From Bosea sp. ANAM02 (GTDB lineage: Bacteria > Pseudomonadota > Alphaproteobacteria > Rhizobiales > Beijerinckiaceae): a stretch of 64,000 nt of DNA. Below are positions 37,243 through 55,945 of this stretch, one piece after another (position 1 is the stretch's first letter; the number at the start of each line of letters is the position of its first letter). The notes beneath the pieces were generated by a model. The model had not been told where the DNA came from. It made no database searches and was given only the letters and a program-made list of their open reading frames with translations. The DNA lies in NCBI RefSeq assembly GCF_011764485.1, contig NZ_AP022849.1, positions 620,001 to 684,000 of the forward strand, read 5' to 3'. A program made the translations under genes and the position numbers.

Positions 37243-38313
37243 TCAAGCCGAGAGGGTGGCGAGTGGATCGCTTGCAAGATCCGCGATCAGGTTCAGATCC
37301 TGGGCGCGCGCGATCCGCTCGGAGGCGACGATCGCGAATTCCTGTGAGCTGGCGCCGCGAGGCCAATCCTGGTCGCCGAACTGAGCGTAAGCGGTTCGAT
37401 AAGCCTCAAAGCATGCTCCGGCCCGACCCACCGCTTCCGCCGTGGGCGATAGGCTGTCGACCTCTTGGCACGCCCTTTTGAGCTCGACGAAAGCGACCAG
37501 GAGCTCGAAGGGTGTTTTGCCCAACTCGCTTGGCGCGATTGCGTATTCGATATCAACCATCGCCCGGTGGATGCTTCCGGCTACCGGATCGTCGAGAGCG
37601 TTCTCGTCATGGATGATGACGCGGCCTTCGCCGAGCCGCACGTCCGTGTTCGGCCAAAACGTGTGCGCCGGGAGATCCTTGCTCACAAGCAGGCTTTCCG
37701 CGAAGGCAACGGCCGCTTCCGACTGATCCCCGCGGAAATATCCGAAGCTCGGGCTGTCGCGATCCGGCATCGCAAGCTCCACCGAGCTGATTGCGTTGGA
37801 CAGGATGTTCGAGCGAGGGTTCAAGCACCAGACCGGCGCCGGCGCGCGCATATGCACGACGCCCCCAATCACGAGGACCGCGTCCATCATCTCGCGAACC
37901 GCCCCTGCGATCGCATGCTCGCGATTCGATTGGAAGACGGTCGCTCCGGGTGGGATCCCAGCGTTGAGAAAAGTGATCAGCCGCCCGGTTCGCCCCTTCA
38001 GGGGGTAATCGATCCAGGATCCACGCGCTTGCCTGTTTTCGGCCTTTTCCTTCGCCAGATGGAACTCGCTGGCACGGATCGGCAGGTCGTCACCGTCGAA
38101 CATCGGTCGATAAAGTCGCCCGTCGACGACGCGCCAGTCGCAATCGTGGGGAGGCAGCGTCCGGCCCCGCATACTGATGGCAATGGGGGCATCATCGATC
38201 GTGCGGACCGCGATCGGCACCACTTCGCGGTACTCCACGTCCTCCTGGTCGCGCTTGCGAGGAAGTTTCACCCGAGCAAGATAGGGCACATCGAATTCGA
38301 GGATCGTCGTCAT
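37243..38313 (-). CDS. LxxL-tail paralogue family, copy 1
   Basis: 356-aa soluble protein of the seven-member family found only in 37-56 kb of this window. Shared landmarks: N-terminal TIDDAPIAI (about 39-47), central DAVLVIGGVVHMRAPAPVW (about 140-158; family pattern hydrophobic-DG-x5-7-P), a helical C-terminal third, and the last residues DPLATLSA, a family-wide acidic-L-x-x-L tail. No signal peptide, membrane segment or catalytic motif. It overlaps copy 2 by 4 bases (38310-38313, ATGA), so the two are made together and may form a complex. I do not recognise the family. Confidence 0.7.
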   Translation of the reverse strand: MTTILEFDVPYLARVKLPRKRDQEDVEYREVVPIAVRTIDDAPIAISMRGRTLPPHDCDWRVVDGRLYRPMFDGDDLPIRASEFHLAKEKAENRQARGSWIDYPLKGRTGRLITFLNAGIPPGATVFQSNREHAIAGAVREMMDAVLVIGGVVHMRAPAPVWCLNPRSNILSNAISSVELAMPDRDSPSFGYFRGDQSEAAVAFAESLLVSKDLPAHTFWPNTDVRLGEGRVIIHDENALDDPVAGSIHRAMVDIEYAIAPSELGKTPFELLVAFVELKRACQEVDSLSPTAEAVGRAGACFEAYRTAYAQFGDQDWPRGASSQEFAIVASERIARAQDLNLIADLASDPLATLSA

Positions 38314-39341
38314 AGCTGCAGCATATCGAGGTCGTTAGGGGGAGCGGGCGCGAGCACCTGCACGATCTGGGCGGCCCGGCGCGCGGCAAAGCCAGCATGA
38401 GCTGCCATTGTGCGATCCATGCGACGCTGAATGATGGTCGGGTCAGCTGGCGGCATGAAGGCCTCCATGCGATCGAGCACATGGGCAAGGGCGAGCGCCT
38501 TATCGTTGCCGTTGGGCTCCTGACCGAGCCGGCGGATTTCAGCCCAGCCGCTGATGACCTCGAAGGGCAGTTTCTCGAATCCCGGCAAATCGGCCAACAT
38601 CACGTCGCCGACGAGGCCCTTGCAAACTGCCGCCTGGAAATCCGAAATCTCATCAAAGGCAAGGCAACGGTCAGAGATGACCTCGACATTCCCGACCTGG
38701 CTCATGCGATTGCCACGCAGGTATTGTCCCGCAAGCTCCTCGGCTGCTTCCATATTGCTGAGGCGAAACGCGTAGGTATGGGATGACTTCTCAGCGCATG
38801 CCGGCGCGGTGGAAGGCCAGACGCCTGGGACCCGAAAATCGACGGTGACCACCGGCTCTCGCGCAAGCCTCCACGGCATGCCGTCGAGCAGCACCAGGTT
38901 CTCCGCCTGAAGCTTCGCGCGAGTGACCGCTTCGCCCTCCGTGCTGCTGACAACACGCGCCGATTTTAGCTGGAGGTAATCGATCCCGGAGAAGTTCGAG
39001 TCCTGCCAGTACTGAACGTGGCACGACCGGTAGGACGCTTCCTCGAAGGGATTGCTGGAGAAGGTGGTACCGTGCGGGCCGACTAGTTCAAGGAAGCGCT
39101 CGAAATCGACCAGTTCACCGTTCTCGCCCACCACGCGCTCAAAGAGCCGGTCGCCGACCTCACGGTACTCTATGACCTTATCCATGATCGTCTCGATCCG
39201 GATCGCCAGGGGCGCTTCGCTAAGCGACATCTCCTCGACCTTGACCGGCATGCCGCGGCGAACCCGCACAGTGCGCTCTGCGCGGCCCTTTGGAGGCACA
39301 TGTGTGACCTCGTAGCCGATCTGTGGCCAGAAGACTTTCAC
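38310..39341 (-). CDS. LxxL-tail paralogue family, copy 2
   Basis: 343-aa member. Family motifs: LSEAPLAI (about 40-47), NLVLLDGMPWRLAREPVV (about 171-188), tail NDLDMLQL. N-terminal third is basic (PPKGRAERTVRVRRG). It is the upstream partner of copy 1 with a 4-base overlap and lies 3 bases after the 198-aa gene, so at least three genes share a transcript. Divergence from copy 1 is large (only motifs align by eye), pointing to old duplication. Function unknown. Confidence 0.7.
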   Translation of the reverse strand: MKVFWPQIGYEVTHVPPKGRAERTVRVRRGMPVKVEEMSLSEAPLAIRIETIMDKVIEYREVGDRLFERVVGENGELVDFERFLELVGPHGTTFSSNPFEEASYRSCHVQYWQDSNFSGIDYLQLKSARVVSSTEGEAVTRAKLQAENLVLLDGMPWRLAREPVVTVDFRVPGVWPSTAPACAEKSSHTYAFRLSNMEAAEELAGQYLRGNRMSQVGNVEVISDRCLAFDEISDFQAAVCKGLVGDVMLADLPGFEKLPFEVISGWAEIRRLGQEPNGNDKALALAHVLDRMEAFMPPADPTIIQRRMDRTMAAHAGFAARRAAQIVQVLAPAPPNDLDMLQL

Positions 39342-39344
39342 GGC

Positions 39345-39941
39345 TCAGCGCGGCCTGGGAGATGGCGCAGGCTGTTCGCCAATCACGACCGACCAGCCGC
39401 GCATCGCGATCTCGTCACCGGCGATGAAGGTGCCGGCGGATACAGAGTGGATCGAGAACTCGCCCTTGATGCTCTTGGCGAGGCTCTCGCAGACATCGTC
39501 GCTGTCCATCGCGAGCGGACCGACGAACAGCCCCTTCGATCCATCCGCCGTCGTGACGAACCAGGCGGCGACCTCGCTCAGCAGATCCGGATCAGCCTCG
39601 AATTCCGCTGGCGAGATGACTTTGCCAGGAGGAGCGGTGCCCTCGATCGCGCCAGTCGCGAAGACCGTGCCGTCGAAGCTCATCGCCTGGTCGTGCTTGC
39701 CCATCGGAGCTTTTGCGAGGCAGACGCCGCCGAGCAGGACATGTTCGATGGAGGTGTAGCGGGAGCCCGAAAGGAAGCGGTTCTCGATATCGAGCCAGAC
39801 CTCGTCTTCGAGGTTGTGGGCGCCAACGCCGATCTTCGTAGGTAGACCTTCGCCGCGAAGGATGACGACGCCCACGCGCCGCGCGCGGATCGTGCCCGCA
39901 GCCTCAAGGGTTTCACCAACACCATCGACATTGAGTCGCAT
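39345..39941 (-). CDS. Hypothetical protein in the family operon
   Basis: 198-aa soluble protein with a beta-rich pattern (GVVILRGEGLPTKIGVGAHN, DEVWLDIENRFLSGS, MRGWSVVIGEQ). It is not a member of the LxxL-tail family but is co-transcribed with copies 1 and 2 (3-base gap). It has no recognised motif. It may be a partner of the two downstream products. Confidence 0.55.
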   Translation of the reverse strand: MRLNVDGVGETLEAAGTIRARRVGVVILRGEGLPTKIGVGAHNLEDEVWLDIENRFLSGSRYTSIEHVLLGGVCLAKAPMGKHDQAMSFDGTVFATGAIEGTAPPGKVISPAEFEADPDLLSEVAAWFVTTADGSKGLFVGPLAMDSDDVCESLAKSIKGEFSIHSVSAGTFIAGDEIAMRGWSVVIGEQPAPSPRPR

Positions 39942-39971
39942 CTGTCACTCCCACTTCCGGTGAGTGCTTAT

Positions 39972-40283
39972 CTAGCCCGCGGCGACGAAAGCCAAAATCG
40001 GGTCGGACCTGCCCTGGCGAAGACGGAAGATGACCGGGACGGAAAGCTTGGCGGCGAGCGCCGCCAAGGCAGCAACCTTTGTCTGGGCCACATCCCATGG
40101 CAGCCAGGTCAGTTCGACCTCGCCGATGATACGGCAGAGGGTGACCAGCGATCCCGCGTCGATAGGATCGCGGGTGAAGGCAATTTCGAGCAGTTCGCGG
40201 AGCGCGGCAGTTTCGCTGCCGCGCATTTGCATGATCAGAGCGTAGGGGCGCGGTTTGGCGAGATTTCGAACCGGTGCCCTCAT
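39972..40283 (-). CDS. Small hypothetical protein
   Basis: 103-aa protein with a basic N terminus, helix (AALRELLEIAFTRDP) and a hydrophobic C-terminal strand pattern. It lies between gcrA (7 bases upstream) and the family operon (30-base gap). No function recognised. Its position suggests one long minus-strand transcript from gcrA to 37243. Confidence 0.5.
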   Translation of the reverse strand: MRAPVRNLAKPRPYALIMQMRGSETAALRELLEIAFTRDPIDAGSLVTLCRIIGEVELTWLPWDVAQTKVAALAALAAKLSVPVIFRLRQGRSDPILAFVAAG

Positions 40284-40290
40284 GGAACGA

Positions 40291-40935
40291 TCAGGCAGAG
40301 AGGCGGTCGTCGTCGGTGCGCTCGCGCTGCATGGCGACCGGGCGCTGGCTGCCGGGCTTGTAGGCGAGGCGGCGATGGCCTTCGCAATACGAACCGGGGT
40401 TCTCGTGGCGCATGTTGCAGAAGCGGAAGGTGGGGCTCATCGGATCGCCAACAGGCCACTTGCAGGGCTTGCCCTCGACGGAGCGATCGGAGAGCGAATT
40501 GATGGCTTCAGCGCCGAACCACTCGGTGTCCGGCATCACGATCTTGACCGGCGGAAGTTCGACACGCGCGATGACCGGGCGCGGCGGAGGAGCGGGGAGC
40601 GCGACGGTTGTTCCGTCGGACGCTTTCGATGCCTTCTGGTAAAGAACGTTGATCGAAGCCGGCCTTGCGGCCCTTTCGGTCTTCTCGCGCTTCGGCCGAA
40701 CCGGCTTCGGCTGGCCGGCGGTCGCTGCGCGCTCCTCTTTCGTCTTGACCGGGCTTGGGATACGGGCGCCGCCCTTATAGGCCAGATTGAGACGATTGAC
40801 CTTGCCGATGATGGAATTCTTGGTGAGTGACGATCCGTGCCGCAGATTGAGGATCTCGGCGCAGGCCGTTGTGGACTTGCGATCGTTGACCCACAGCGTG
40901 TGCAGATCGTCGATCATCGCTTGCGTCCAGCTCAT
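40291..40935 (-). CDS. gcrA: GcrA-like cell cycle regulator
   Basis: 214-aa regulator of the GcrA family, which in Caulobacter binds RNA polymerase sigma70 and promoters carrying methylated GANTC. The N-terminal DNA-binding domain is clear (MSWTQAMIDDLHTLW and NSIIGKVNRLNL, 1-50); a Pro/Lys-rich linker follows. The C-terminal sigma-interaction domain has the family pattern GKPCKWPVGDPMSPTFRFC and YCEGHRRLAYKPG (about 155-195). It is first in a minus-strand run that continues into the LxxL-tail family genes. Two DNA methyltransferases lie on the same element, but neither is clearly a CcrM type. Confidence 0.9.
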   Translation of the reverse strand: MSWTQAMIDDLHTLWVNDRKSTTACAEILNLRHGSSLTKNSIIGKVNRLNLAYKGGARIPSPVKTKEERAATAGQPKPVRPKREKTERAARPASINVLYQKASKASDGTTVALPAPPPRPVIARVELPPVKIVMPDTEWFGAEAINSLSDRSVEGKPCKWPVGDPMSPTFRFCNMRHENPGSYCEGHRRLAYKPGSQRPVAMQRERTDDDRLSA

Positions 40936-41064
40936 AAACCCGCTCCTGACTGATACCGACCGCGCCCGCGGTCATGGAATGACGATTCAGTCCTACGAAC
41001 GGTCCTTGAAAGTGTCGAGCGCGAATCATCGATCCATGCAGACTTCCGTGGATAGCCATCGACG

Positions 41065-41085
41065 ATCCTTGATCGCTCTAAGGAT
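41065..41085. promoter_or_regulatory. ATCCTT-N9-AAGGAT pair between gcrA and the TrpF-like gene
   Basis: ATCCTT at 41065-41070 and AAGGAT at 41080-41085 form an inverted pair with the 9-base spacer also seen at 24295-24315 and 43445-43465. A further CCTTGAAAG (41003-41011) lies nearer to gcrA. Function inferred. Confidence 0.4.
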
Positions 41086-41127
41086 TGGCTCTTTTATCCA
41101 ATGATGACACCAGCGCGAGGCATCTCA

Positions 41128-41775
41128 GTGACCGCCATCAAGCCCGACTTCATTACCTTCACCGGCGCCGACGATGGCACCAGGACGGAAGAGCTCCTGG
41201 CCTTCGCGGGTCGCCACCCCAAGACGGAATTCGGCATCCTCTTCTCAGCCTCCCGTGCGGGAACGTCGCGCTACCCAACGCTCTCCTGGATCCGCGATGT
41301 TCCGAGGAGCCTGCGGCTCGCCGCCCACGTCTGCGGCAGCTGGGCAGCCACCCTGGCGGAGCGCGGCGAACAGGCGGAGGTCGAAGCGCTGATCGGCGGG
41401 TTCCAGCGGGTTCAGATCAACGTTGGCCGGGCACCTCAGGATCTAGGCCCTCTTGTCAGCTTCGCTGCGAGGCTCGGGGTCGATGTCATCTTGCAGAGCA
41501 GGGACGGAAATGCGTTCCCTGCCGAGAATAGGATCTCATGGCTTTTCGATGCGTCCGGCGGCGCCGGCATCGTGCCTTCGTCATGGCCCCATCATCATGA
41601 GGACCGACTGGTCGGCTATGCGGGAGGTCTCGGCCCGTCGAACGTTGCTCAGGTCGTCGCCGACCTCGACGCGACCGGCGCGTACTGGATCGACATGGAG
41701 AGCCGCGTCCGCAACGCGGACGACGCTTTCGACCTCCGCCTCTGCGACCAGGTTTCTCGCGCCGTCGGCCTCTAG
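41128..41775 (+). CDS. TrpF-like beta/alpha-barrel protein
   Basis: About 215-aa (GTG at 41128 with GAGG 9 bases upstream; ATG at 41101 also possible) single-domain TIM barrel resembling phosphoribosylanthranilate isomerase-like proteins. Visible landmarks: KTEFGILFSASRAGTSRYPTLSW near the N terminus, VQINVG, DVILQSR, and the phosphate-binding end LVGYAGGLGPSNVAQVVADL with ATGAYWIDMESRVR. The typical TrpF Cys/Asp pair is not obvious, so the substrate is uncertain. No tryptophan genes are nearby, which argues against a biosynthetic role. Confidence 0.65.
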   Translation: MTAIKPDFITFTGADDGTRTEELLAFAGRHPKTEFGILFSASRAGTSRYPTLSWIRDVPRSLRLAAHVCGSWAATLAERGEQAEVEALIGGFQRVQINVGRAPQDLGPLVSFAARLGVDVILQSRDGNAFPAENRISWLFDASGGAGIVPSSWPHHHEDRLVGYAGGLGPSNVAQVVADLDATGAYWIDMESRVRNADDAFDLRLCDQVSRAVGL

Positions 41776-41783
41776 AGGCGATC

Positions 41784-43400
41784 TCAGACGGTCGCGCGCA
41801 GGCCTTGCTCGCCGCGCGACCGCTCCGAGGAGGGAGACCTCCTGGTCGTCATTCCCCGGCGACGCTCCTTGGCTTCCCGCTTGAGATCCGGCGCTTCGCC
41901 CGAAGGCCACGCCACCAGCTTCTCGGTTCCGAGGGTGGAGCCGACACCCTTGAGGTAGGCAACGAGATCCACGGACATCGTGCCGAGACGCTCGATGCCC
42001 GCCTCCGAAACCCGAAACGCTTCGCCTTCCCGCGGGGACTGTGCATCGCGCACCGAAGGGACGGAGCGAGCCAGATCGAGGTGAGCTTCGATCAGCTCCT
42101 CATTCCCGTGAACCGGCATGGCAAAGCGCGGGCGGATGGCGCGATAGAGATCCATCAGTTCGTCGCGATGACCATGGCCGGAAGCGTGGATTGGGAGCCC
42201 GCTATTGGCATCCAGTACGTTCACGCCCTTGGCGCGAAGCGTATCCAGCATCATCCGAACGGTCGCCTCGTTGCCCGGGATCGCCCGAGCCGAGTGGACA
42301 ACCGTGTCGCCCGCCTCGATGCGGAACGGACCGGAATTCGAGAACGCCCCCAACTCCAGCTCCGTCGTCAGGCGTCGAAGAGCCGACCGCTCCTCCGCTT
42401 GCGTGCCGGTGCAAACCACCGCCATCTTCCGCTTCGGGATCCCGTGATGGAGCCGACGAGCGTCGATCAGGGGAGGGGTATTCGGCTGCAGGACGCCGGT
42501 GGCGCAGGCCGTCTCGAAATTGCGCTGGATCGAGAATCCGGACGACGCCAGGGAGCGGCCGCTGCGGCGGGCAGCGCCGCGAATGCCTTCGATCCGGGCG
42601 ACATTCGAAGCGAACGTGGAGACGTAAACCCTACCGGTGGCAGAGCGCATGACATCGGTCAGGCCATCCATCACCTCGCCCTCCGAGCGGGAGCGTCCGG
42701 AACGATGCGCATTCGTGCTGTCGGCCAAGAAGGCGAGCACACCGGCCCGGCCAACACGCTCCAGGCTGCCGAAGTCGGTCGGCGCGCCGATGACCGGCCT
42801 GCTATCGACCTTCACGTCGCTGGCGTGGATGATCCGCCCGGCCTTGCAGGCGAGCAGGATCGCCATGGTCTGCGGAGCAGAGTGGGTCACGCGGATCGGA
42901 GTGATGTCGAACTGCCCGATCCGCGTGGTGCGCTTCGGGTGAAGCTCCCGCATTGGGTGGGACCGACCATATTCGCGAAGGCGGTTCTGCACCGTCTCGA
43001 TGGTGTACTTCGTCCCCCAGATCGGGACACGGGAGAGGCGAGGCCAGGCCTCACTGAAGGCAAGGAGAGGGGCGATCCCGCCAACATGATCCTCGTGGGC
43101 GTGAGTGAGGATGATGGCGTCAAGGCGATTGATGATGTCGCCGAAGCTGCGGGGGTCGGGGAAGATTGATTCGACCCTGGCTTCATGGCGCTCCGCGAAC
43201 TCGGCCGCGAAATCGTCGTCTGCGCCGGGGAATGTCGCGCCCAGGTCGATCAGGACCCATCGGCCCTTGGTGCCTACAGCGTAGCAGTTCATGCCGACGC
43301 GGTTCGTTCCGCCGAGCGGAAGGATCGTGATCGCGCTGTCGGACGGGATCGGCGCCCGCTCCAGAAAGGGGAGCGCCTGCGAAATTGGATTGGATGTCAA
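41784..43400 (-). CDS. rnj: Ribonuclease J-like metallo-beta-lactamase RNase
   Basis: 538-aa RNase of the beta-CASP metallo-beta-lactamase superfamily, which in alphaproteobacteria matures rRNA and mRNA 5' ends. Motif 2 is TILTHAHEDHVGG (in the ORF, AIILTHAHEDHVGG, about 94-107); further metal ligands in THSAP, DVKVD and LADSTNA. Beta-CASP elements: STFASNVARIEGI, AVVCTGTQAEERSALRRL, and IPGNEATVR; then HASGHGHRDELMDLYRAIRP with PVHGNEE. Length matches RNase J (about 550). Whether it replaces or competes with the host copy is unknown. Confidence 0.88.
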   Translation of the reverse strand: MTSNPISQALPFLERAPIPSDSAITILPLGGTNRVGMNCYAVGTKGRWVLIDLGATFPGADDDFAAEFAERHEARVESIFPDPRSFGDIINRLDAIILTHAHEDHVGGIAPLLAFSEAWPRLSRVPIWGTKYTIETVQNRLREYGRSHPMRELHPKRTTRIGQFDITPIRVTHSAPQTMAILLACKAGRIIHASDVKVDSRPVIGAPTDFGSLERVGRAGVLAFLADSTNAHRSGRSRSEGEVMDGLTDVMRSATGRVYVSTFASNVARIEGIRGAARRSGRSLASSGFSIQRNFETACATGVLQPNTPPLIDARRLHHGIPKRKMAVVCTGTQAEERSALRRLTTELELGAFSNSGPFRIEAGDTVVHSARAIPGNEATVRMMLDTLRAKGVNVLDANSGLPIHASGHGHRDELMDLYRAIRPRFAMPVHGNEELIEAHLDLARSVPSVRDAQSPREGEAFRVSEAGIERLGTMSVDLVAYLKGVGSTLGTEKLVAWPSGEAPDLKREAKERRRGMTTRRSPSSERSRGEQGLRATV

Positions 43401-43444
43401 ACGGACCTACTGTCTGTCGTTACGATTCAAAAAAGTGATACCCA

Positions 43445-43486
43445 TTCCTTCACACCATGAAGGATTGATCCGAAAGTTAGAAGGAT
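43445..43486. promoter_or_regulatory. TTCCTT-N9-AAGGAT pair plus AAGGAT upstream of RNase J
   Basis: TTCCTT at 43445-43450 and AAGGAT at 43460-43465 form an inverted pair with a 9-base spacer, 45 bases upstream of the RNase J start. A further AAGGAT is at 43481-43486. The divergent 115-aa gene starts 80-100 bases away. Function inferred. Confidence 0.4.
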
Positions 43487-43565
43487 CGTTCGAAGGCTTC
43501 TGGTGGATGGGGGCTTTGTGAGTTGCGTCCGAGAACGCCACTCTGCATGCAAGGAGAGTGGATCA

Positions 43566-43913: not shown

Positions 43914-43915
43914 CC

Positions 43916-44998
43916 ATGAAGACGCGCAATGTTACCGTGCGATCGGTTTTCCCGCTGACGATCCAGAAGAAGCGCTCGCGCGCGCGTCAGACCATCGGCC
44001 TGCATCGCGACTTCTCGATCGCTGTTCGAGATCTGACTGGCGACGAAGCACCTGTCGCCATGCACCGCGTCGTCGAGCCGCGCGTCTGGAAAAATCCATC
44101 GGTCACCATTCGCGCTGTGAACGGAATGCCCTTTGGCTTGATTGGCGGCCGCCACCTCGACGATCACCATCTTCACAACCTGAGCATTGGGGATCCGAGC
44201 GGCCTGTCGCTTCTGGGAAACATCACAGATCCAGAGCGCACGCCGAAGGACACCTACGAGACGATGCCCTTCGACATCGACAAGGTCTTCTATGACGGGG
44301 AAGACGACCATCTTCGTCGCATCGAGAAAGGCTTCGAGGCCCTCGCTTTCATCGATGGCAAGCTCCACAAAACGACGCCGCTTCCGAGCTACATGGTCAC
44401 TGTGGGCAACAAGACCGAAGTCTCCCTCGACAACGAGGCCGGGCGCCACATGAACTGGCGGACGGCTTATCGTGGCCTGAACTTCAACGCTGACCAGTTC
44501 GACACTGCCGTGAAGCTGGCGGCCGAAATCGCATCCGTGACGCCGGGAGACAAGCGCCCTGGAGTAGAAGCGACGGGAGACTGGGAGATCCTCGATCTCG
44601 CTCTGATCGAGGCCGCGCGTCTGCCGGAGCTGCTGATCAACGCTCGCGCAGCCGTCAATCTGGCGCTCGACGCCGCGAAGACGTCACTCACCCTGCTTCC
44701 CCCAGCGGCCTTCGTAAAGCTCGGCGAGCTCGCCGCCTGCAAAACCGAAATCACGGCTCCAGAGCGGACCCGCGCATTGGCCGGTGTCGAGCGCGCCCGA
44801 AGCCTGATCCACGAGCTTCAGGAGGCTGAATTCGGGGTCTCCCGTCATCATTCCTCGACACGCGCGCACCTGCGCCGCTGGACGGCCGTTAGCCTCCTCT
44901 CCATCGACGCCTGTGAGCCGCCGGCTATGGTGCCCGAGGAGATCGAGTCCGACCCGGATTACGACAGGGCTGTCGAAGAACTCGCAATGCTGAGGTGA
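43916..44998 (+). CDS. LxxL-tail paralogue family, copy 3
   Basis: 360-aa member. N terminus is basic (SVFPLTIQKKRSRARQT) and followed by TGDEAPVAM (about 41-49). Central FEALAFIDGKLHKTTPLPSY (about 141-160). A helical C-terminal third with LLINARAAVNLALDAAKTSL (about 240-259) resembles the VVNARNLLYELKVAFD of copy 4. Ends VEELAMLR, the family tail. Starts 2 bases after the 115-aa gene and is followed after 3 bases by copy 4, forming an operon. Unknown function. Confidence 0.7.
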   Translation: MKTRNVTVRSVFPLTIQKKRSRARQTIGLHRDFSIAVRDLTGDEAPVAMHRVVEPRVWKNPSVTIRAVNGMPFGLIGGRHLDDHHLHNLSIGDPSGLSLLGNITDPERTPKDTYETMPFDIDKVFYDGEDDHLRRIEKGFEALAFIDGKLHKTTPLPSYMVTVGNKTEVSLDNEAGRHMNWRTAYRGLNFNADQFDTAVKLAAEIASVTPGDKRPGVEATGDWEILDLALIEAARLPELLINARAAVNLALDAAKTSLTLLPPAAFVKLGELAACKTEITAPERTRALAGVERARSLIHELQEAEFGVSRHHSSTRAHLRRWTAVSLLSIDACEPPAMVPEEIESDPDYDRAVEELAMLR

Positions 44999-45001
44999 GA
45001 T

Positions 45002-45976
45002 GTGCTCGCCCATGCCTCCATCCCGCTCAACGTGACCTACGTCCCGTATCGAGCGAGAAACCCGCAGACGATCTCAACCCTGGCGTCAGCACCTCTGATG
45101 CTGCGCGAGTTCTCGTCTGAGGAGGCGCCGGTCGCGGTCACCATGGAGCACCATCGGCGACCAGGCCTGAAGTATGTTCGCCGTCTCCGGGGGACATCGC
45201 TCTTCGCTCCGGTCGCCGCGAAGGCGGGCATCCCTCCACTCAGCGCATCCGATCTGAAGGCGCGCCTGGCCGATCCAGCCTGGGTCGCCCGCTTTCTCCA
45301 GTGGGAACACAAGGAAGGCGATTCCACGCTGCCAGCCAAGCTTAGGCGCGTCATCGACGACGGAAGCGAGCACCTGCGCTCGGCGACGGCGGCGCTCTCT
45401 CGGATCTTGATCATCGACGGTTTCGCCTACAGGCCTGCCCTCGAACCCGCTTTCGTCATCAGGAGCTTCCTGGGCACCTGGTCGGCCGACACAGCCGCAC
45501 CGCTGCAGCGGCGAAACGCCTCAGTTGGAGTTCATTTCAGCATCCGGCGCTCCGGCGCGTGCCTTGAGGCGCTTCGGGAGATGGCCCTGGCCAAGGGCGA
45601 GGTTCACAACGAACAAATGCCTCCGGTCGAGTTTCTAGCGGATCCATGCTGGCCCATGTTCCCCGAGGCGGTGGTCAACGCGAGGAACCTTCTCTACGAG
45701 CTGAAGGTCGCCTTCGACAGGTACACCGCCGATTACGTTATGGGGCTGGAAAACTTCGCAGAATCCACGGCGATCGAGCGCAAGCTTCAGAGTGCACTTT
45801 CCTCCGATGCTGGTGAGGATCTCCCCGCCGAGGCGATTTCGCTCGCCGAATCGGTGCTCCGCGACAACCCGGCGCTCGACGGTTCAAAGATAACCCCGCT
45901 CATCAAATCAGTTTCTGACAGCGTCGACTTCGTCACTCACGACGAAGCGCCCGAACTCGCGGATCTTGCTCCATGA
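45002..45976 (+). CDS. LxxL-tail paralogue family, copy 4
   Basis: 324-aa member (shortest). N terminus LNVTYVPYRARNPQT resembles copies 5 and 6 (GYRYPVTYVARGGRT, GAAYRAKRARNPQH). Family motifs SSEEAPVAV (about 39-47) and RILIIDGFAYRPALEPAF (about 135-152). Tail APELADLAP. GTG start at 45002, four bases after the copy 3 stop; its stop overlaps the start of copy 5 (ATGA, 45973-45976). Function unknown. Confidence 0.7.
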   Translation: MLAHASIPLNVTYVPYRARNPQTISTLASAPLMLREFSSEEAPVAVTMEHHRRPGLKYVRRLRGTSLFAPVAAKAGIPPLSASDLKARLADPAWVARFLQWEHKEGDSTLPAKLRRVIDDGSEHLRSATAALSRILIIDGFAYRPALEPAFVIRSFLGTWSADTAAPLQRRNASVGVHFSIRRSGACLEALREMALAKGEVHNEQMPPVEFLADPCWPMFPEAVVNARNLLYELKVAFDRYTADYVMGLENFAESTAIERKLQSALSSDAGEDLPAEAISLAESVLRDNPALDGSKITPLIKSVSDSVDFVTHDEAPELADLAP

Positions 45977-47013
45977 CCAAGCGAACGGTTGCCATCGGCT
46001 ATCGCTATCCCGTGACCTACGTGGCTCGGGGCGGCCGAACCGCGAAGACGGCGCTGATCAACAGCACCTTCGACATGGAGATCCCTTGGCTCTCCAAAGA
46101 GGATGCTCCCATCGCGCTCACGATTCATGACAAGGGAGGGCACTCGATGACGCGAAGGGCGTTTAAGGGGCACTGCTATCACAGCCCCTTCATGGTGGAT
46201 CGTCTCCACGGTCCTGACCTGGTCAACTCGCTACGCCTGCCCGCGACGACCCACACCATCCTTCAGTACATGCTGCCGAACTCGGTCTATCACTGGCTGG
46301 GTGACGGCAACGCATTCGATGTCCTTCCGCTTGAGACGGCCCGGGTCCTCTCGGACCGCCAACAGGAGGTCGAGGCCGCTGTGCGCAGGGCGTTCGCGAA
46401 AGTCGCGATCATCGATGAGCGGGTCCACGTTCGGCGCCGCCAACCCATGATCGCCGTGACGCTCGCCAACACCAAGAGCGGGTCTCGCAAGCTCTACGCG
46501 TCCACCAGGATCGAAATGCGAAATACGGGTGATCGGGCGATCGAATTCCAGTTTCGCCCAGAGCGCCTGGAGGATGCTCGCCGGTTCTACAAGGCTTGGG
46601 CAAAGGGCGAAATCTACGACGATCTCACGGTCACCGGCGTCGACCGCGATACGGATTTGCTGCCGCCGGCCTCAGAGGCCCTCGTAAATACCGAGGCGGC
46701 CGCCAACCGGATGCTCACGCTCCTTTCGAACTTCATCGGCCACTTCCCCGACGATGGCTATCAGCTGCTCGCGCGCGTTGGGCGGGCGCATAACCTCGCG
46801 GTGAACGACGACTCGTCCAGCATCCCGCTGCTTTTGTCCGCTATGGACGACCTTGAGGCCTCGAAGTGCTTCTCGGACGACATGTTCTGGGCGCGCACCG
46901 AATTGGAATTCTGGATGCCGATTTTCCGAGACGCAGTCACGAACTCGATCGATTATCCAGAGCTCGCTTTCGGCCGATCAGACGACCCGGATCTCGCTCT
47001 CCTCACGCCTTGA
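45973..47013 (+). CDS. LxxL-tail paralogue family, copy 5
   Basis: 346-aa member, last gene of the 43566-47013 operon. Motifs SKEDAPIAL (about 41-49), VAIIDERVHVRRRQPMI (about 145-161) and tail DPDLALLTP. C-terminal third holds LVNTEAAANRMLTLLSNFIGH, as in copies 3 and 4. It runs 11 bases into the 3' end of the convergent broken adk gene. No catalytic motif. Function unknown. Confidence 0.7.
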   Translation: MTKRTVAIGYRYPVTYVARGGRTAKTALINSTFDMEIPWLSKEDAPIALTIHDKGGHSMTRRAFKGHCYHSPFMVDRLHGPDLVNSLRLPATTHTILQYMLPNSVYHWLGDGNAFDVLPLETARVLSDRQQEVEAAVRRAFAKVAIIDERVHVRRRQPMIAVTLANTKSGSRKLYASTRIEMRNTGDRAIEFQFRPERLEDARRFYKAWAKGEIYDDLTVTGVDRDTDLLPPASEALVNTEAAANRMLTLLSNFIGHFPDDGYQLLARVGRAHNLAVNDDSSSIPLLLSAMDDLEASKCFSDDMFWARTELEFWMPIFRDAVTNSIDYPELAFGRSDDPDLALLTP

Positions 47014-48803: not shown

Positions 48804-49011
48804 CCACCGCCTTCGATCCTACCCCGAACCTCGCGACCCAGGTCGGTATCGGTAGCAGCCATCGCTCTCAGCATCGCTCCGGTGGAGAGGTGCGCGGCTC
48901 CGAGGCGCTTCGACAAAAGCGAAGCCTGAGTCCCCTTACCAGCGCCCGGAGGGCCGAGGAATGCAAGGCGTGCGACACGCATCGGAAGTCGATTCCTGGA
49001 TTAAAGATCCG

Positions 49012-49051
49012 TTCCTTGAGCAAGGCCGTGGATCCGCGCATCGTCAAGGAT
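49012..49051. promoter_or_regulatory. TTCCTT and AAGGAT copies between adk and dam-like gene
   Basis: TTCCTT at 49012-49017 and AAGGAT at 49046-49051 lie in the divergent gap between adk (start 48982) and the Dam-like gene (start 49115). Spacing differs from the 9-base pairs. GTGGATCC between them is also recurrent near other starts. Role inferred. Confidence 0.3.
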
Positions 49052-49114
49052 TGTTTTTAGTTTCGTCCAGCGCTTCCATGATCGCCTCAACGAACACCTC
49101 CCGAGGAGATCGAT

Positions 49115-50011: not shown

Positions 50012-50874
50012 CGCATGGCGAAGGCGACAGCCTCGCCCTCTAGGTCCACCGCTCGTCTGGGTTCCGCCATCCGCGGTGCAACCGCCAGAACCGCCGGCTC
50101 GACCTCCGACTCCATGAATGCAGCCATAAAGGGCGGCAGCTGACCGCCGACCAGACCACGGCGCAGTTCCTGCAGCGAACGAACGGTCTGCTCGAACGCC
50201 GTCGGCTCGATGGCCTTGTCATCCAGCGCGCGCGAGAGATGCTCGACAATGGCGTCGAACCGCTTCTCCGCCGTCTCGTTCAAGCGCGCCCCCGACTGCC
50301 GCTGGCGAAGCTGCGCCTGGCCATAGGCGGCCATCAGCCCCTCGCCGGGGGTGAGGAGGCCAGGCACCATGCGCAGAAGGCTGAGCACCTGCTCGTCGAA
50401 CGTCTTCTGAGCGCGTGGTGAGGGGCCGTTCGAGATCTCGGCACGGCGGGCGCCGAGCAGGGTATCTCCGAGATCGCTGCCATGCAGCTCGACCCGGCCG
50501 GCGCCGATTGTCAGAGGAGCGATCGTGATGCCGTCGAGGTCCCGTGAAATCGTGACAGGAACGGTTTCGATGGTCCGCGTGCCTTCGTGGTCATGGACCG
50601 GCCAGCGGGCCTGCAAGAGGATGCCCATGCCTGTCGCGCGCTGATGGACGATCCCGAGGATTTCTTCGGCAACGAAGGGCTCGGCCTGCGGAGCCAGCGT
50701 CTGCACGGCGCCATCGGCGGTTCGCCGCCAGAGACGATCCCTCCCGTCGATCGGGCCCGAGCCATAGCTGGCTCCATCGAGCCCCTCGGCAACTCTGAGG
50801 GGGCCATGCTCACCCTGGACAGTTCGGAATTCGAGCTTTGCCATATCGGCGAATGCGGGCGACAGGTTCGACAT
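50008..50874 (-). CDS. Hypothetical protein
   Basis: 288-aa soluble protein. The N-terminal half is beta-rich (KLEFRTVQGEHGPLRVAEG, VPVTISRDLDGITIAPLTIGAGRVELHG), the C-terminal half is helical (KTFDEQVLSLLRMVPGLL, FEQTVRSLQELRRGL). It lacks the EAPxA motif and L-x-x-L tail, so it is not counted in the paralogue family although it lies next to copy 6 (57-base gap). No function recognised. Confidence 0.55.
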   Translation of the reverse strand: MSNLSPAFADMAKLEFRTVQGEHGPLRVAEGLDGASYGSGPIDGRDRLWRRTADGAVQTLAPQAEPFVAEEILGIVHQRATGMGILLQARWPVHDHEGTRTIETVPVTISRDLDGITIAPLTIGAGRVELHGSDLGDTLLGARRAEISNGPSPRAQKTFDEQVLSLLRMVPGLLTPGEGLMAAYGQAQLRQRQSGARLNETAEKRFDAIVEHLSRALDDKAIEPTAFEQTVRSLQELRRGLVGGQLPPFMAAFMESEVEPAVLAVAPRMAEPRRAVDLEGEAVAFAMR

Positions 50875-50931
50875 AGGGCACCTTCCTCTTCAGAAGGGAG
50901 CCTTCGCCGCGGCGACGAAAGGCACAACAAC

Positions 50932-51939
50932 TCAAAGCGACAGCGCGTCGAGCTCCGGGTCGCTCGCTGCCGCGATGCGCGGACGGAAGTCCAGGAGGTT
51001 CAGATCGAACGCTCGATTGAATGTCAGCGTCGCGAGCTCGAACTCGGGGAGATGGATTGCGATCTCTCCGAATTGGGCTCGCAGGACCGCTGGATCGAAT
51101 TCATTGGGATCGAAGGCGTCCACCACCTCGCGATATGCGAGCCATGCACGCAGGGCCGGCTTGGTGAGCCATAATCCGGAACTGGTCGGGACAAAGCGGA
51201 CGCAGCTGAGGGTCGAGCGGATCAGCCCGAGTGTCATGTCCGTCTTCAGGTAGTCCGGAATCGCGTTGATCACGCGCAGATTTTCGAGCTCCTCCGAGAC
51301 ACTGACGCGCCCGTTTGGCTTCAGGCTCTCGGCCATGGCCCGAGCAGCCCCCAAATCCGTCAGCATCATGGGGATCACGGCGCCGCCGCGATCGCCCTGA
51401 TTGCGGGGAATATGGTTCATGTGGATCGAGACATTGGAGAGCGACGTCCGACCAACATTGAAGATCGGCGCTCCTTCCACGCAGACCAGCTGCCCGGCGA
51501 CGACGGCAACGTTTTCCCGCACATGTTTCAGCGCGGACGCACGCGCGCTGTCGCGCGTTGTCTCAACCCATTCGACATCCGGCTTATCCGCCTGAAACTG
51601 GGTAAGCGTGGGTGCCTTCAAGCGGCCGAAGAGGCTCGCCGATGGCTTCTCCAGACCTAGGATGTATCCGGGATCCGCAAACTCGACTTGGCCAGTTCGC
51701 TTCATATGCGGCTGGGCCCAAAGCTTCCCCGCCACTCCATGCAAGATGAGCTCGCTGAACTCCGGCCGGCGATACTGGGCATATTGAATGTGGAGCGCGC
51801 CCGGATCATCGAATCCCACGAAGCTTGGAAGATCGATCTCTTCGATCTCCGCGACTTCGACGTGCTGCGGGTTGCGCGCCCGCTTCGCGCGATATGCGGC
51901 CCCATAGACGTATCTGATGAAGGTCTTCACGCCAGTCAT
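50932..51939 (-). CDS. LxxL-tail paralogue family, copy 6
   Basis: 335-aa member. N terminus YGAAYRAKRARNPQHVEV matches copy 4 (YRARNPQT) and the DDPGALHI stretch takes the place of the EAPxA motif. Central NVAVVAGQLVCVEGAPIF (about 157-174). Tail DPELDALSL. Its start overlaps the stop of a small upstream frame by 4 bases (51936-51939). Function unknown. Confidence 0.68.
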   Translation of the reverse strand: MTGVKTFIRYVYGAAYRAKRARNPQHVEVAEIEEIDLPSFVGFDDPGALHIQYAQYRRPEFSELILHGVAGKLWAQPHMKRTGQVEFADPGYILGLEKPSASLFGRLKAPTLTQFQADKPDVEWVETTRDSARASALKHVRENVAVVAGQLVCVEGAPIFNVGRTSLSNVSIHMNHIPRNQGDRGGAVIPMMLTDLGAARAMAESLKPNGRVSVSEELENLRVINAIPDYLKTDMTLGLIRSTLSCVRFVPTSSGLWLTKPALRAWLAYREVVDAFDPNEFDPAVLRAQFGEIAIHLPEFELATLTFNRAFDLNLLDFRPRIAAASDPELDALSL

Positions 51940-52070
51940 CCATCGTTGCTCGTGAGCTCAGAAAAGCCGCCGCTTCCGAAAGTCGCAAATCCGTCGATCG
52001 TGACCTCAAGGCCTTTCGCAGACGAACAGTCAATCCACACGCAAGGCGCGCCCGAAACAAGAAAAAGCAT
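51936..52070 (-). CDS. Possible short leader gene upstream of copy 6
   Basis: A 44-aa frame (MLFLVSGAPCVWIDC) whose stop overlaps the copy 6 start (ATGA). It can be extended to 52154 (72 aa), but then it would overlap the ndk start. Without a ribosome site, a coding role is only suggested by the overlap. It may be a leader or a chance frame. Confidence 0.25.
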   Translation of the reverse strand: MLFLVSGAPCVWIDCSSAKGLEVTIDGFATFGSGGFSELTSNDG

Positions 52071-52122
52071 GCGCCGAACATGAATCGCGATATCATTCCT
52101 TGTAAATTCGGAGAATCGAGCT

Positions 52123-52542
52123 TTGTCGACTGAGCGCACCTTCGCCATGATCAAGCCGGACGCTACGCGCCGGCACCTCGTTGGCCAGATCCTGGAAATG
52201 GCCGGCGCAGCGGGACTTCATGTTCGCGCGATGAAGCGACTGAGGCTCGACGATCAGGACGCCTCGCTCATGTATGCCGAGCACGAAGGGAAGTCATGGC
52301 TTCCCGAACAGATCGCCTACATGACGTCGGGAGCCGTCGTCGCGATCGTTTTCGAGGGCCAGGACGCCATCACCCGCTGGCGGGCGCTGATGGGACCCAC
52401 CGATCACACGAAGGCGCCGGCCGGCACGATCCGGAACAAGTTCGCGATCTCCTATCGCGAGAACAGCGTCCACGGCTCGGACTCGCCGGAAGCAGCGAAC
52501 CGCGAGATCCCGCTCTTCTTCGCCAGCTCCGAGATCGCGTGA
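52123..52542 (+). CDS. ndk: Nucleoside diphosphate kinase
   Basis: 139-aa enzyme transferring phosphate from NTP to NDP via a phosphohistidine. Conserved ERTFAMIKPDAT (with Lys11) at the start, GPTDHTKAPAGTIR (91-104) and the active-site NSVHGSDSPEAA with His117. Length normal (about 140). TTG start at 52123; a TTCCTT copy lies 22 bases upstream. With adk and dcd it forms the nucleotide-metabolism set of the element. The following gene starts 13 bases later. Confidence 0.93.
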   Translation: MSTERTFAMIKPDATRRHLVGQILEMAGAAGLHVRAMKRLRLDDQDASLMYAEHEGKSWLPEQIAYMTSGAVVAIVFEGQDAITRWRALMGPTDHTKAPAGTIRNKFAISYRENSVHGSDSPEAANREIPLFFASSEIA

Positions 52543-52555
52543 GCCCCACTAGCCG

Positions 52556-53323
52556 ATGCAAGATGCCTTGACCATTCTGACCGACCCCGCCGACAACTGG
52601 CCGTGGCTCCTCGCGCTCATCCTCGTGGTGTCGGCTGGCGGCTCTCTCGTTATCATCCTCTCTGCCAAGTTCGCGATGCAGGGCATGGCGAAGGAGGCAG
52701 CACGCGCGATCACCCAGCTGACGAAGGCGCCTGTCGCTACCGAATCCAAGCCGAGCATCATCACGGTCGGCGAAGGGCTCTCGCGCTGGCGACCTGGAGC
52801 CTTCACGATGCTCCTCCAGCGTCGTGAAGCTGCAGCCGATATCGACAGCGCCTACAGCGCCGGCGAAGAGGCAATCGAACGCCTCTCCCTTCATCTCGTC
52901 GATCACCTTGGAGAAGTCGGGCTGGCCGAGGCCGATATCACCGGCAAGACCTCCGCGTCCGACGTGGCAGATGGCGGTTGCGCAGCGACGGTCGAAGTTC
53001 AGGTTGCGCTGATGGATCCGTCCCTTCAGCCGAAGATCGCTCAGCTCGCGTTGGCCATCGGTTTCACCGAGAACCGCCGTGGCCAACGTGAGGAAGTCAC
53101 GCTCGACGACGCCCACGAACGCGCTGGTCGGCTCGCGTTTGACGAAGCCACCATCAACATGCGCGCTGCGGCCGCGAGCCTCTCGCGCGCCGAGAAGGTC
53201 AGTTTCGAGGAAATGGCGCTCGTCGACGTCAAGATCGAGAGCGTCGCGTCACTGCCCGGTGAAGATATCCGCAAGCGAGCGACGCTCGGTTGGCGTTCGA
53301 CGGCACCAGCGACGGCGGCCTGA
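52556..53323 (+). CDS. Membrane-anchored hypothetical protein
   Basis: 255-aa protein with one N-terminal transmembrane segment (about 15-38, WPWLLALILVVSAGGSLVIIL) and a long cytosolic or periplasmic part with helices (ERLSLHLVDHLGEVGLAEADI) and a repeated amphipathic pattern. ATG at 52556, 13 bases after ndk, probably the same transcript. The next gene, an OmpA-domain protein, follows after 61 bases; the two could be envelope partners. No family recognised. Confidence 0.6.
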   Translation: MQDALTILTDPADNWPWLLALILVVSAGGSLVIILSAKFAMQGMAKEAARAITQLTKAPVATESKPSIITVGEGLSRWRPGAFTMLLQRREAAADIDSAYSAGEEAIERLSLHLVDHLGEVGLAEADITGKTSASDVADGGCAATVEVQVALMDPSLQPKIAQLALAIGFTENRRGQREEVTLDDAHERAGRLAFDEATINMRAAAASLSRAEKVSFEEMALVDVKIESVASLPGEDIRKRATLGWRSTAPATAA

Positions 53324-53384
53324 CCATCCGATCTTGTCTTCTCCGGGCGATCAGACCAGGCTCTGGGCCCAAGTCGGATTCCGC

Positions 53385-54896
53385 ATGAGACCTTTGATTG
53401 CCGCTGCTAGCTTGCTGGCATTGAGCTCTGCCCAAGTCGTTGCGCAGACGGCCGTTCCTGCGTGGCAACTGCCGCTGCGCGGCCGGGAACAGCCGCAAGC
53501 GACGCCTGCTGATCCTGCCCCGCCTCCTGTAGCACCAGCAGCTCCCTCCGCTCCAGTCGCTCGGCCTCCAGCGCCTCAGGTCGCCCCGCCATCGGCGCCG
53601 ATCCAGACCGCTCCGGCCCCGGCACCTCGACAGCCGCCTCCGGGACTCAATTGGCAGGGGGGACCAGGGACTGTCATCGTCACACCGCCGGCCGCTCCCG
53701 TCCATGTCGCGCCCCAGCCAATGCCTGAGGCACCGCGTGTGTCGCCGCAAACGCAGGTTCCACGGGTCTCCCCGCAAAGCGTGGTGCCCCGGGTGTCCCC
53801 GCAGCCAGATTACGTCGCGCCGGCGCCGCCGCAGCAGCAGCAGCCATCTCCGGGCCTGAACTGGTATCCAGTGCCGAACCAAGCGCAGCGATGGGTGCCT
53901 GCGCCTGCACAGACCGCCCCCGAGCCGGCCCCGATCCCGGCGCCGCGCGTGCCTCGTCAGATGAATCCGGCTCCGGCCGGCGGAACGAGCGTCTTCATGC
54001 CCGGCGCTGGCGTTCGCCGGATTGAGGATGTTCGAGCGCGACGCCAGCGGTTCGAGGAAGCCGGTACGACCATCATCCGCGAGCCGGGCCGTGTGATCAC
54101 GCAAGAGCGCGGCCAAACCTTCCTCCGCCATGACGAGAATGCTCGCTTCGCGCGGTTCGGCGCGCCTATCTCCCAGGAAAGACGGGGAGGCGAGATCTGG
54201 ACAACTTGGGCCCGCCCTGGCGGAGGGCAGCTCGTCTCGGTCACGGATCTCGATGGACGTCTGCTGCGCAGGATCCGCCGCCCCGCCGGTGGCGGCGAAC
54301 ACGTTATCGTCGACAACGGGTGGCGCCGTCCGCGCCATGGAGTTCGCCCCGTCATCGTGATCCTGCCGCCGATCGAGATGCTCAATCCGGGAGAGCTGAC
54401 CATCCTCAACGATGGCCACGAGGCTGAGACTTTCAGCTCGACTTGGTCGCTTGGTCCAGTTGTGCCACTTGACCAAGTCTACGAACTCGATCAGGTCCGC
54501 TTCAGCCCGAGCCTGCGGTCGAGGATGCGCGCGGTCGAGCTGGGTGGCATAAGCTTCGACACCGGCAGTTGGGCGCTCGACCAGGCCGATCTCAACGCAC
54601 TTTCCCTCGTCGCCTCTGCGATTCAGAGCGTGCTCGGAGCAAGTCCCAACGAGATCTTCCTCGTCGAAGGCCATACGGGAAGAGGCGGCAATGAGATCGA
54701 CAACCTCTCGCTGTCCGACCGGCGAGCGGAAGCCATTGCGGAGGTGCTCACTCAGATGGGCATCCCGCCCGAGAACCTCGTGGTCCAGGGCTATGGAGAT
54801 ACGGTCCCACGGGACGAGGGTCGCAGTCGTTCAGCGCGCGACGACGATCGAATCCTCATCCGCCGGATCACCCCGCTGCTAGCCCCTGCCAGCTGA
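53385..54896 (+). CDS. OmpA-domain envelope protein with Pro-rich linker
   Basis: 503-aa protein. Signal peptide (1-20, SLLALSSAQVVAQ), then a long Pro/Ala/Gln-rich linker (25-190) with repeats of the PRVSPQ type, a rhizobial-type middle domain (about 200-300, EAGTTIIREPGRVITQERGQ, RRIRRPAGGGEHVIVDNG) and a C-terminal OmpA peptidoglycan-binding domain (about 380-500: DTGSWALDQADLNAL, VEGHTGRGGNEIDNLSLSDRRA, VVQGYGDTVP). Expected to bridge outer membrane and peptidoglycan. In type IVB systems an OmpA-like lipoprotein (DotK/IcmN) has this role, so a link to conjugation is possible. ATG at 53385; a longer frame to 53079 is antisense-overlapping noise. Confidence 0.85.
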   Translation: MRPLIAAASLLALSSAQVVAQTAVPAWQLPLRGREQPQATPADPAPPPVAPAAPSAPVARPPAPQVAPPSAPIQTAPAPAPRQPPPGLNWQGGPGTVIVTPPAAPVHVAPQPMPEAPRVSPQTQVPRVSPQSVVPRVSPQPDYVAPAPPQQQQPSPGLNWYPVPNQAQRWVPAPAQTAPEPAPIPAPRVPRQMNPAPAGGTSVFMPGAGVRRIEDVRARRQRFEEAGTTIIREPGRVITQERGQTFLRHDENARFARFGAPISQERRGGEIWTTWARPGGGQLVSVTDLDGRLLRRIRRPAGGGEHVIVDNGWRRPRHGVRPVIVILPPIEMLNPGELTILNDGHEAETFSSTWSLGPVVPLDQVYELDQVRFSPSLRSRMRAVELGGISFDTGSWALDQADLNALSLVASAIQSVLGASPNEIFLVEGHTGRGGNEIDNLSLSDRRAEAIAEVLTQMGIPPENLVVQGYGDTVPRDEGRSRSARDDDRILIRRITPLLAPAS

Positions 54897-54898
54897 CT

Positions 54899-55945
54899 TC
54901 AAAGCTTCAGCTCGCTGAGCTCCGGCGCCTCGATACCAGCACCCATCGCTGCCGTGGACGCCTCCAGGTCTGCAAAAGGCGCTGAAAACCATTCCGAGTC
55001 GTAATGGTAGGGTAGCTTCGCTTTCATCTGCATCGCCGCCTCGACCGCCGCGGCAACGTCGATCTTCTCCGGATGCAGCGACTGCATCATGGAACCGAAC
55101 CCTACGATCATGGGAACCGTAATCTCGTCGAGATCGATATAGCCGATCCTGCTGCTCATCCAATCGACTAGGTGCTTGACCACGGAAAAGCGCGGATCGT
55201 CTCGGCAATCGCGAGAAGCCACGATCTCTCCTTCGATCGCAACGTCTAGCTTTTCCCTGCCGAGTTTCTGTCGCGCCTCATGCGTTGCGGCGAGCAGCTC
55301 CGCATAGGCAAGCGCACCAGCGATATCGTCCGCTCGGAAGGCAGCGTGCTGAGCGACGAAGTGATGCTCAGGGATCGCGGCTTGAACCACGATCCGCGGC
55401 GGTCCGAAGGTGTAGCGAACCATCCACACCGGCTCGCGAGCAGGAACAAGAACTGCGCCGTTTAACTCGCGGAGCCGGGTCGCCATCGCTTGTAAACTCG
55501 CCACCTGCAGCGCACGATCGTCGTCGAGAAATCCCTGAAACTCCCGACCGTGGAGCGTTCGGAAACCAGGCACAGCGTCCTTGCGCCTCAACGCGGTCCC
55601 GGCCGTGCGAGATCTGCGGCTTTGTCGGGCAGCGACTTTCATGGCCTGGAAGTGATCCGGCGGCCATTCCCCGCTGAACAGGCTCGCGCCCGCCAGCGAA
55701 AGCCCATCGTCACCGGGGCTGCCATCCTTGCAAAGGGGAGCACGCATAAGACGGCCGTCGATATCGAAGAACTCGATGCGCTCGCCGTGACAGATTGCGG
55801 TAAAAGCCGGCTCAGGCTTGGTATCGATCACGGCAATGCGGACCGGCTCTGAATCGGTGACGAAGCCCGTCTGGATGTGACGGTTCTTTCGCTCGCGAAA
55901 GCGCGCTTCGTAGATCAGATCCATCCAGCGAATGACGTCGGCCAT
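54899..55945 (-). CDS. LxxL-tail paralogue family, copy 7
   Basis: 348-aa member, most divergent copy. N terminus RWMDLIYEARFRERKNRHIQT parallels copies 4-6; KPEPAFTAI takes the EAPxA position (about 43-51). Central ELNGAVLVPAREPVWM. Tail APELSELKL. Start at 55945 is preferred over 55990 because GGAGAGG precedes it. Convergent with the OmpA-domain gene (2-base gap). Function unknown. Confidence 0.66.
   Translation of the reverse strand: MADVIRWMDLIYEARFRERKNRHIQTGFVTDSEPVRIAVIDTKPEPAFTAICHGERIEFFDIDGRLMRAPLCKDGSPGDDGLSLAGASLFSGEWPPDHFQAMKVAARQSRRSRTAGTALRRKDAVPGFRTLHGREFQGFLDDDRALQVASLQAMATRLRELNGAVLVPAREPVWMVRYTFGPPRIVVQAAIPEHHFVAQHAAFRADDIAGALAYAELLAATHEARQKLGREKLDVAIEGEIVASRDCRDDPRFSVVKHLVDWMSSRIGYIDLDEITVPMIVGFGSMMQSLHPEKIDVAAAVEAAMQMKAKLPYHYDSEWFSAPFADLEASTAAMGAGIEAPELSELKL

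Follow-up and report, generated by a model that had tools for sequence, protein, structure and literature searches.

A family of more than thirty paralogous proteins with a recurrent C-terminal peptide on giant plasmids of Bosea

Encapsulin cargo proteins with their cargo-loading peptides and single-stranded DNA-binding protein (SSB) with its acidic tail are built alike, as a body and a linker followed by a short conserved peptide at the C-terminus that docks on a single hub. Other systems that come close are the Avd-type four-helix bundle of diversity-generating retroelements and the effectors of the Dot/Icm type IVB secretion system; according to the available part of the source, the C-terminal E-block (counted here as at least three glutamates at positions -18 to -10) is not carried by all known Dot/Icm effectors (PMC11602083). 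Here we analyze a protein family in a 64,000-nt stretch of Bosea sp. ANAM02 (the window; NZ_AP022849.1, positions 620,001 to 684,000), which lies on a 692,187-bp replicon of a two-contig, 5.65-Mb genome. An initial annotation of the window described seven paralogues that share a C-terminal LxxL tail. The family is much larger than that, and the tail is conserved in most of its Bosea members and nearly absent from a second lineage, in which part of the copies share another ending. Our preferred but tentative reading is that the members are non-enzymatic, non-redundant adaptor or assembly subunits that would dock on a common partner by a lineage-specific C-terminal peptide.

The family and its C-terminal tail in Bosea

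The seven window copies are open reading frames (ORFs) at the following places, exactly where the initial annotation had put them.

37243..38313, minus strand: family copy 1, 356 aa, last eight residues DPLATLSA at 37246-37269 (ORF and profile search)
38310..39341, minus strand: family copy 2, 343 aa, tail NDLDMLQL at 38313-38336
43916..44998, plus strand: family copy 3, 360 aa, tail VEELAMLR at 44972-44995
45002..45976, plus strand: family copy 4, 324 aa, tail PELADLAP at 45950-45973
45973..47013, plus strand: family copy 5, 346 aa, tail PDLALLTP at 46987-47010 (the copy modelled with AlphaFold2)
50932..51939, minus strand: family copy 6, 335 aa, tail PELDALSL at 50935-50958
54899..55945, minus strand: family copy 7, 348 aa from the ATG, tail PELSELKL at 54902-54925

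The frame of copy 7 is open up to 55990 (TTG), and the ATG at 55945 is also the start of its orthologue in a further Bosea genome, G024 (MADVIRW). The homology of the seven is not due to chance, as each of them, as the sole query of an iterated profile search, retrieves the other six and 92-96 of the 99 Bosea members with 0 reversed decoys (8,978 ORFs plus decoys). A profile built from the seven copies finds 33 places in the ANAM02 genome at E <= 1, 32 of them on the window's replicon (G000:C2) and a single one on the other contig (C1) at E 0.8. Instead of seven copies, iterated profile searches of six-frame ORFs give 34 family members on this replicon, 34 on the RAC05 plasmid (pBSY19_1, NZ_CP016463.1; G009:C1) and 31 on G024:C2, counted up to the final 1.8 kb of that contig. 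The members form 18 clusters around each Bosea replicon, many of them operons with 4-bp overlaps; the tight operons noted earlier in the window are of this kind, with 4-bp overlaps between copies 1 and 2 and between copies 4 and 5, and a 3-bp gap between copies 3 and 4. About one gene in 20 on the Bosea replicons belongs to this one uncharacterised family (34 members and 703 annotated features on the RAC05 plasmid).

The tail separates the family from the other genes of the same replicons. All seven window copies end in LxxL plus one or two residues, versus 44 of 2,849 other ORFs of the replicon. With one to three residues allowed after the second leucine, the tail is present in 56 of the 99 Bosea members (20, 18 and 18 per replicon) versus 175 of 8,879 other ORFs, a comparison set that includes spurious frames. 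When the last 20 residues of each member are shuffled, the tail turns up in 7.1 of 99 on average and in no more than 21 (500 rounds). A looser pattern, an acid followed by L/I/M x x L/I/F/M near the end, is found in 26/34, 23/34 and 24/31 members of ANAM02, RAC05 and G024, and in the family alignment the leucines of the tail are conserved in 80% and 75% of the 92 and 91 rows that have a residue there. Between ANAM02 and RAC05, the tail occurs in both partners of 16 of the 26 family pairs, in one partner of 4 and in neither of 6, versus 4, 22 and 370 of the 396 other pairs (Fisher 6e-19); one of the six tail-less orthologue pairs ends in G[VF]RP on both sides. At least three D/E are present in the last 12 residues of 16/34 ANAM02, 19/34 RAC05 and 15/31 G024 members versus 8-9% of other ORFs. 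The acidic LxxL tail is a genuine, inherited feature that few other plasmid genes have.

The copies behind these tails are retained individually. A quick tree of the 99 Bosea members contains at least 20 clean one-to-one-to-one triples, with one copy per Bosea replicon. Copies 1, 2, 3 and 7 have RAC05 orthologues at 593107-594189 (36.7% identity), 591974-593110 (30.1%), 582353-583432 (26.2%) and 569265-570371 (25.4%), respectively; copy 4 has a G024 orthologue at 82.1% and no RAC05 partner in the tree, and copy 6 a G024 orthologue at 91.3%. The median ANAM02/RAC05 identity is 30.5% for the 26 family pairs versus 49.2% for 396 non-overlapping other pairs, about 4% of which are as low as the family median. 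The median ANAM02/G024 dN/dS is 0.138 for the family (30 pairs, all below 0.25) versus 0.085 for the others (340 used of 343). The family genes are retained, fast-drifting and under purifying selection, and Bosea keeps them largely copy by copy across great divergence.

Other giant plasmids and the ending of the AM1 members

Seven of 67 Bosea genomes match the family at E <= 1e-6, three with large sets (at least 32, at least 32, and 30 matches) and four with one partial match each. These partial matches (G815:C12:57969-58607; G033:C2:5038615-5039346; G014:C1:3114433-3115125, with an in-frame TGA; and G004:C16:66334-67020) may be remnants of a giant plasmid that was lost or became integrated. 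In samples of the order (397 genomes) and class (385), ANAM02 alone matches, which is a lower bound from the best five candidates per genome. The plasmid's primase/polymerase has matches in 8 of 72,556 plasmid records, which led to other giant plasmids, and in 0 of 50,697 phage records. We ran the Bosea profile on the whole sequence of six giant plasmids linked by this enzyme and of a Microvirga plasmid. The 1.26-Mb megaplasmid of Methylorubrum extorquens AM1 gives 30 matches (weakest E 0.011) and R. leguminosarum pRlX5 gives three, while the 1.4-Mb plasmid pMVF16-1 of Microvirga sp. VF16 holds one copy with an in-frame stop (NZ_CP069355.1 783338-784360). The same whole-plasmid search finds 0 matches on two Acetobacter plasmids and that of Rhodovastum, and on the Acidiphilium plasmid only matches at E 0.03 and 6.9, none convincing. 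Counted by their distinct stops, the members in the regions around the AM1 matches number 30; they make up two tandem arrays (NC_012811.1 432-443 kb and 1226-1243 kb) and a scattered remainder.

Public protein searches, which scored the roughly 8,000 candidates with most words in common, retrieved 33 proteins with six AM1 queries and one R. leguminosarum query; one is from Methylobacterium hispanicum, on a contig with ten consecutive family ORFs. The accession PF27633.1 is precomputed for 28 of these 33 AM1-type proteins and for the public proteins P0001 (identical to copy 1) to P0005, and is absent from the other five and from P0006-P0011. It appears to be this family, although it is known here as an accession alone, a precomputed label whose name was not read and whose model was not among the Pfam models searched.

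The AM1 members end differently. LxxL ends 1 of 30, and G-x-[RK]-P ends 10 of 30 versus 13 of 782 other ORFs, including the subset with GP[RK]P (8/30 versus 3/782). Nor are the AM1 tails acidic (2/30). P[DE][LF] lies within the last 24 residues of 10/30 AM1 members versus 12/782 other ORFs and is enriched in Bosea too. Among the AM1-type public proteins, 19 of 33 end in [GA]P[RK]P, and the linker in front of this end varies. In all this the tails behave as a short docking motif does. The fixed C-terminal peptide of the initial annotation thus holds in changed form, as a selected peptide in Bosea but with another ending in part of the AM1 copies, and homologues that lack the tail, which are part of what it had named as a refutation, do exist on another plasmid.

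A short C-terminal tail with a variable linker and low model confidence might also be a regulated-degradation signal for a host or plasmid protease. To our knowledge no known degron matches it, the tail is mostly limited to one family, and AM1's different ending is left unexplained by such a signal, which we therefore consider highly improbable.

The initial annotation had also proposed that the tail is a type IVB secretion signal. On this account, the type IVB (I-type) transfer system of the plasmid itself would carry the proteins as its substrates into recipients in conjugation, for example to disarm defences. DotH was found on G000:C2, the RAC05 plasmid, G024:C2, AM1, pRlX5, both Acetobacter plasmids and the Acidiphilium plasmid, and therefore on 5/5 tested replicons with open family members (the three Bosea replicons, AM1 and pRlX5); a DotH search of pMVF16-1 and Rhodovastum found none, and the lone pMVF16-1 copy is the one interrupted by a stop. 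The acidity of the Bosea tails would suit such substrates as well, and a looser acidic block, at least four D/E at positions -18 to -10, is mildly enriched (3/34, 2/34 and 3/31 versus 1-2% of others; p 0.022, 0.089 and 0.0095). However, the Legionella-type E-block is essentially absent (1/34, 0/34 and 1/31 in Bosea, 1/30 in AM1), the non-acidic AM1 tails do not fit, and no convincing family match was obtained on three giant plasmids that do carry DotH (two from Acetobacter, one from Acidiphilium). In the part of PMC11602083 available, the Legionella signals are described as lacking detectable sequence homology, unlike the common peptide of this family. A general export signal would be expected on unrelated cargo too, and the rarity of the tail on other plasmid genes (4/396 pairs versus 16/26, with no known substrate as yardstick) would tend to speak against a general secretion signal. 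The near absence of LxxL from AM1, where 8/30 copies end in GP[RK]P, speaks against it as well. The type IVB signal is thus unsupported, and we regard the substrate reading as doubtful. The distribution of DotH and of the family across the giant plasmids indicates that the family is a speciality of part of this plasmid group, and that neither transfer nor replication depends on it.

Protein body and genomic surroundings

The N-terminal motif, the DG...P block and the helical last third described for the seven copies are all recovered in the family alignment (up to 96 rows) and in a model of copy 5. The motif A45-P46-x-A48 is kept at 62/77/68%, D148-G149 at 61/75% and P158 at 94%, while R22 is present in 91% (K in a further 5%) and R20 in 56%. 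Conservation is strongest mainly at P, G, A, F and L residues and at R22 and R62, with no obvious catalytic set among these positions. AlphaFold2 models copy 5 with confidence (pLDDT 87.8, pTM 0.84) and gives its last third as helices at 235-333; the confidence of the tail is low (block means 68 and 56). The predicted architecture is two alpha/beta parts and a helical bundle, followed by a variable linker and the short C-terminal peptide. No fold match to this model was found in PDB or BFVD at E <= 0.001 (0 matches in BFVD), and no convincing family match in Pfam, PHROGs, NCBIfam, PDB or BFVD; a scan of genome contigs and viral contigs with copy 1 gave no match, and no title or abstract describing the family turned up in the literature searched. 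It is, as the initial annotation supposed, unnamed in the libraries searched.

In the model, R22 and R20 sit where two strands of 17 residues each turn into one another, at the tip of a long beta hairpin. The proteins could bind nucleic acids, or act in the nucleoid or in segregation, for a giant replicon that is self-contained, with the basic tip contacting DNA or RNA and the tail, like that of SSB, recruiting replication or segregation factors, and neighbors such as DNA methylases, an SMC ATPase and RNase J would fit. Yet the proteins are mildly acidic overall (median pI 5.8), no DNA-binding protein matches the fold at E <= 0.001, and more than 30 non-redundant copies would be excessive for such a role, which makes this an unlikely explanation. 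Another alternative is a heteromeric structure of family members only, a shell, filament or scaffold in which each tail would dock into the next subunit. The one-to-one retention of at least 20 paralogues, the tight operons with many 4-bp overlaps, the near restriction of the tail to the family and the lack of an obvious catalytic set agree with this, but the copies are dispersed over 18 clusters, the AM1 set is differently expanded, and neither PDB nor BFVD offers a fold match at the same threshold; we hold it to be rather unlikely.

Two conserved flanks surround the window copies.

28319..34764: syntenic flank with an SMC-type ATPase, a DsbA-like thioredoxin, a dCTP deaminase and a DNA methylase; reciprocal best hits in RAC05 597484-604746
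40291..43400, minus strand: syntenic flank with a GcrA-type regulator (40291-40935) and RNase J (41784-43400), near family copies in ANAM02 and RAC05

Copies 1-2 lie near GcrA, copies 3-5 are flanked by RNase J and a DNA adenine methylase in both ANAM02 and RAC05, and these flanking genes are reciprocal best hits between the two. Genes of AM1 related to the thioredoxin and to the SMC ATPase (window 28319-32634) stop about 1.1 kb before AM1 array 2. An R2K-clade ATP-grasp protein (window 34761-35903) adjoins the DNA methylase, and their reciprocal best hits are adjacent in RAC05 too. A TnpB-type RNA-guided nuclease at window 47480-48724 is the sole megablast match of 37000-57000 to RAC05 (77.8% identity); the matching RAC05 gene (63309-64532) likewise adjoins family members, following a pair at 62201-63253.

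The RAC05 gene table, self-described as incomplete and covering all of the plasmid except 450,001-460,000, lists an I-type/type IVB transfer system, dnaE, dnaQ, primase/polymerase, ligase (ligA), gyrase A and B, topoisomerase 3, RecA, RuvA, RuvB, ribonucleotide reductase, thymidylate synthase, three sigma-70 factors, ScpA, ScpB and CRISPR-Cas, and no gene in it is named capsid, portal, terminase or encapsulin. This 0.7-Mb conjugative replicon is giant-phage-like in having its own replication and nucleotide-supply genes, with no virion gene named in the table. A type I-E CRISPR-Cas system lies at NZ_CP016463.1 86800-95432, and a second cluster with Cas6/RAMP-like genes at 258648-264215.

The docking reading and known systems

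The comparisons above demonstrate that the copies are paralogues under purifying selection, that Bosea retains them one to one, and that the tail is conserved but differs between lineages. Docking or assembly remains the best reading of the tail; its use as a type IVB delivery signal is unsupported. The bodies would be non-enzymatic recognition or assembly units with a different job for each copy. The similar short end on most copies suggests that they plug into one common partner, probably encoded by the plasmid, with the tail as the docking peptide. Where the interface changes in a lineage, the tails would change alike, giving the acidic LxxL in Bosea and GP[RK]P in many AM1-type copies. Tail-less copies may act as heteromers through the tail-bearing proteins encoded beside them: a tail-bearing gene is present in 18/18 clusters of ANAM02 and in 17/18 of each of the other two Bosea replicons.

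Several observations weigh against docking on a common partner. The looser tail is missing from 8/34 ANAM02, 11/34 RAC05 and 7/31 G024 copies, and 22/30 AM1 copies lack GP[RK]P. The cluster result is weak, since about three quarters of the copies carry the tail, and for the 18/18 in ANAM02 the chance of no singleton among eight tail-less genes is about 0.09. The AM1 members fall mostly into their own clades (9 label changes versus 26 in shuffles), so their common ending may partly reflect inheritance. In addition, R22 at the tip of a beta hairpin would equally suit nucleic-acid binding.

A fuller form of the preferred reading is a plug-in adaptor system of giant conjugative plasmids that are themselves largely self-sufficient, in which more than 30 fast-diverging, non-redundant recognition bodies would carry one lineage-specific C-terminal plug for a single hub, with plug and socket changing together (LxxL in Bosea, the GPRP type in Methylobacterium/Methylorubrum); this is possible, and we put it forward with more reserve than docking as such. 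Should the tails prove to dock on one partner, its identification would account for a good part of the dark genes in one group of giant conjugative plasmids, and the family would be a clear case of a docking peptide rewritten over many paralogues. The AM1 megaplasmid belongs to a tractable model organism, in which the family can be tested. PMC3349727 and PMC2680597 describe megaplasmid deletions that were selected in AM1, and plasmid genes that are mostly unknown; the available parts give no coordinates that place the arrays inside or outside the deletions.

The family, carried by giant conjugative plasmids of Alphaproteobacteria, is called new because no family, fold or system matched it, with the caveats that a Pfam accession with unread text exists and that the docking principle is already familiar. 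Like the family, the Dot/Icm effectors of Legionella have a partly acidic and hydrophobic C-terminal end, and a type IVB system is encoded on the same replicon. Unlike them, as far as the available part of PMC11602083 describes them, the family repeats one fold more than 30 times with a similar peptide, without the E-block and with a tail that is rare elsewhere. Encapsulin cargo and SSB differ from the family in the body, which here is unlike any match found, but share with it the arrangement of a body, a linker and a short conserved C-terminal peptide.

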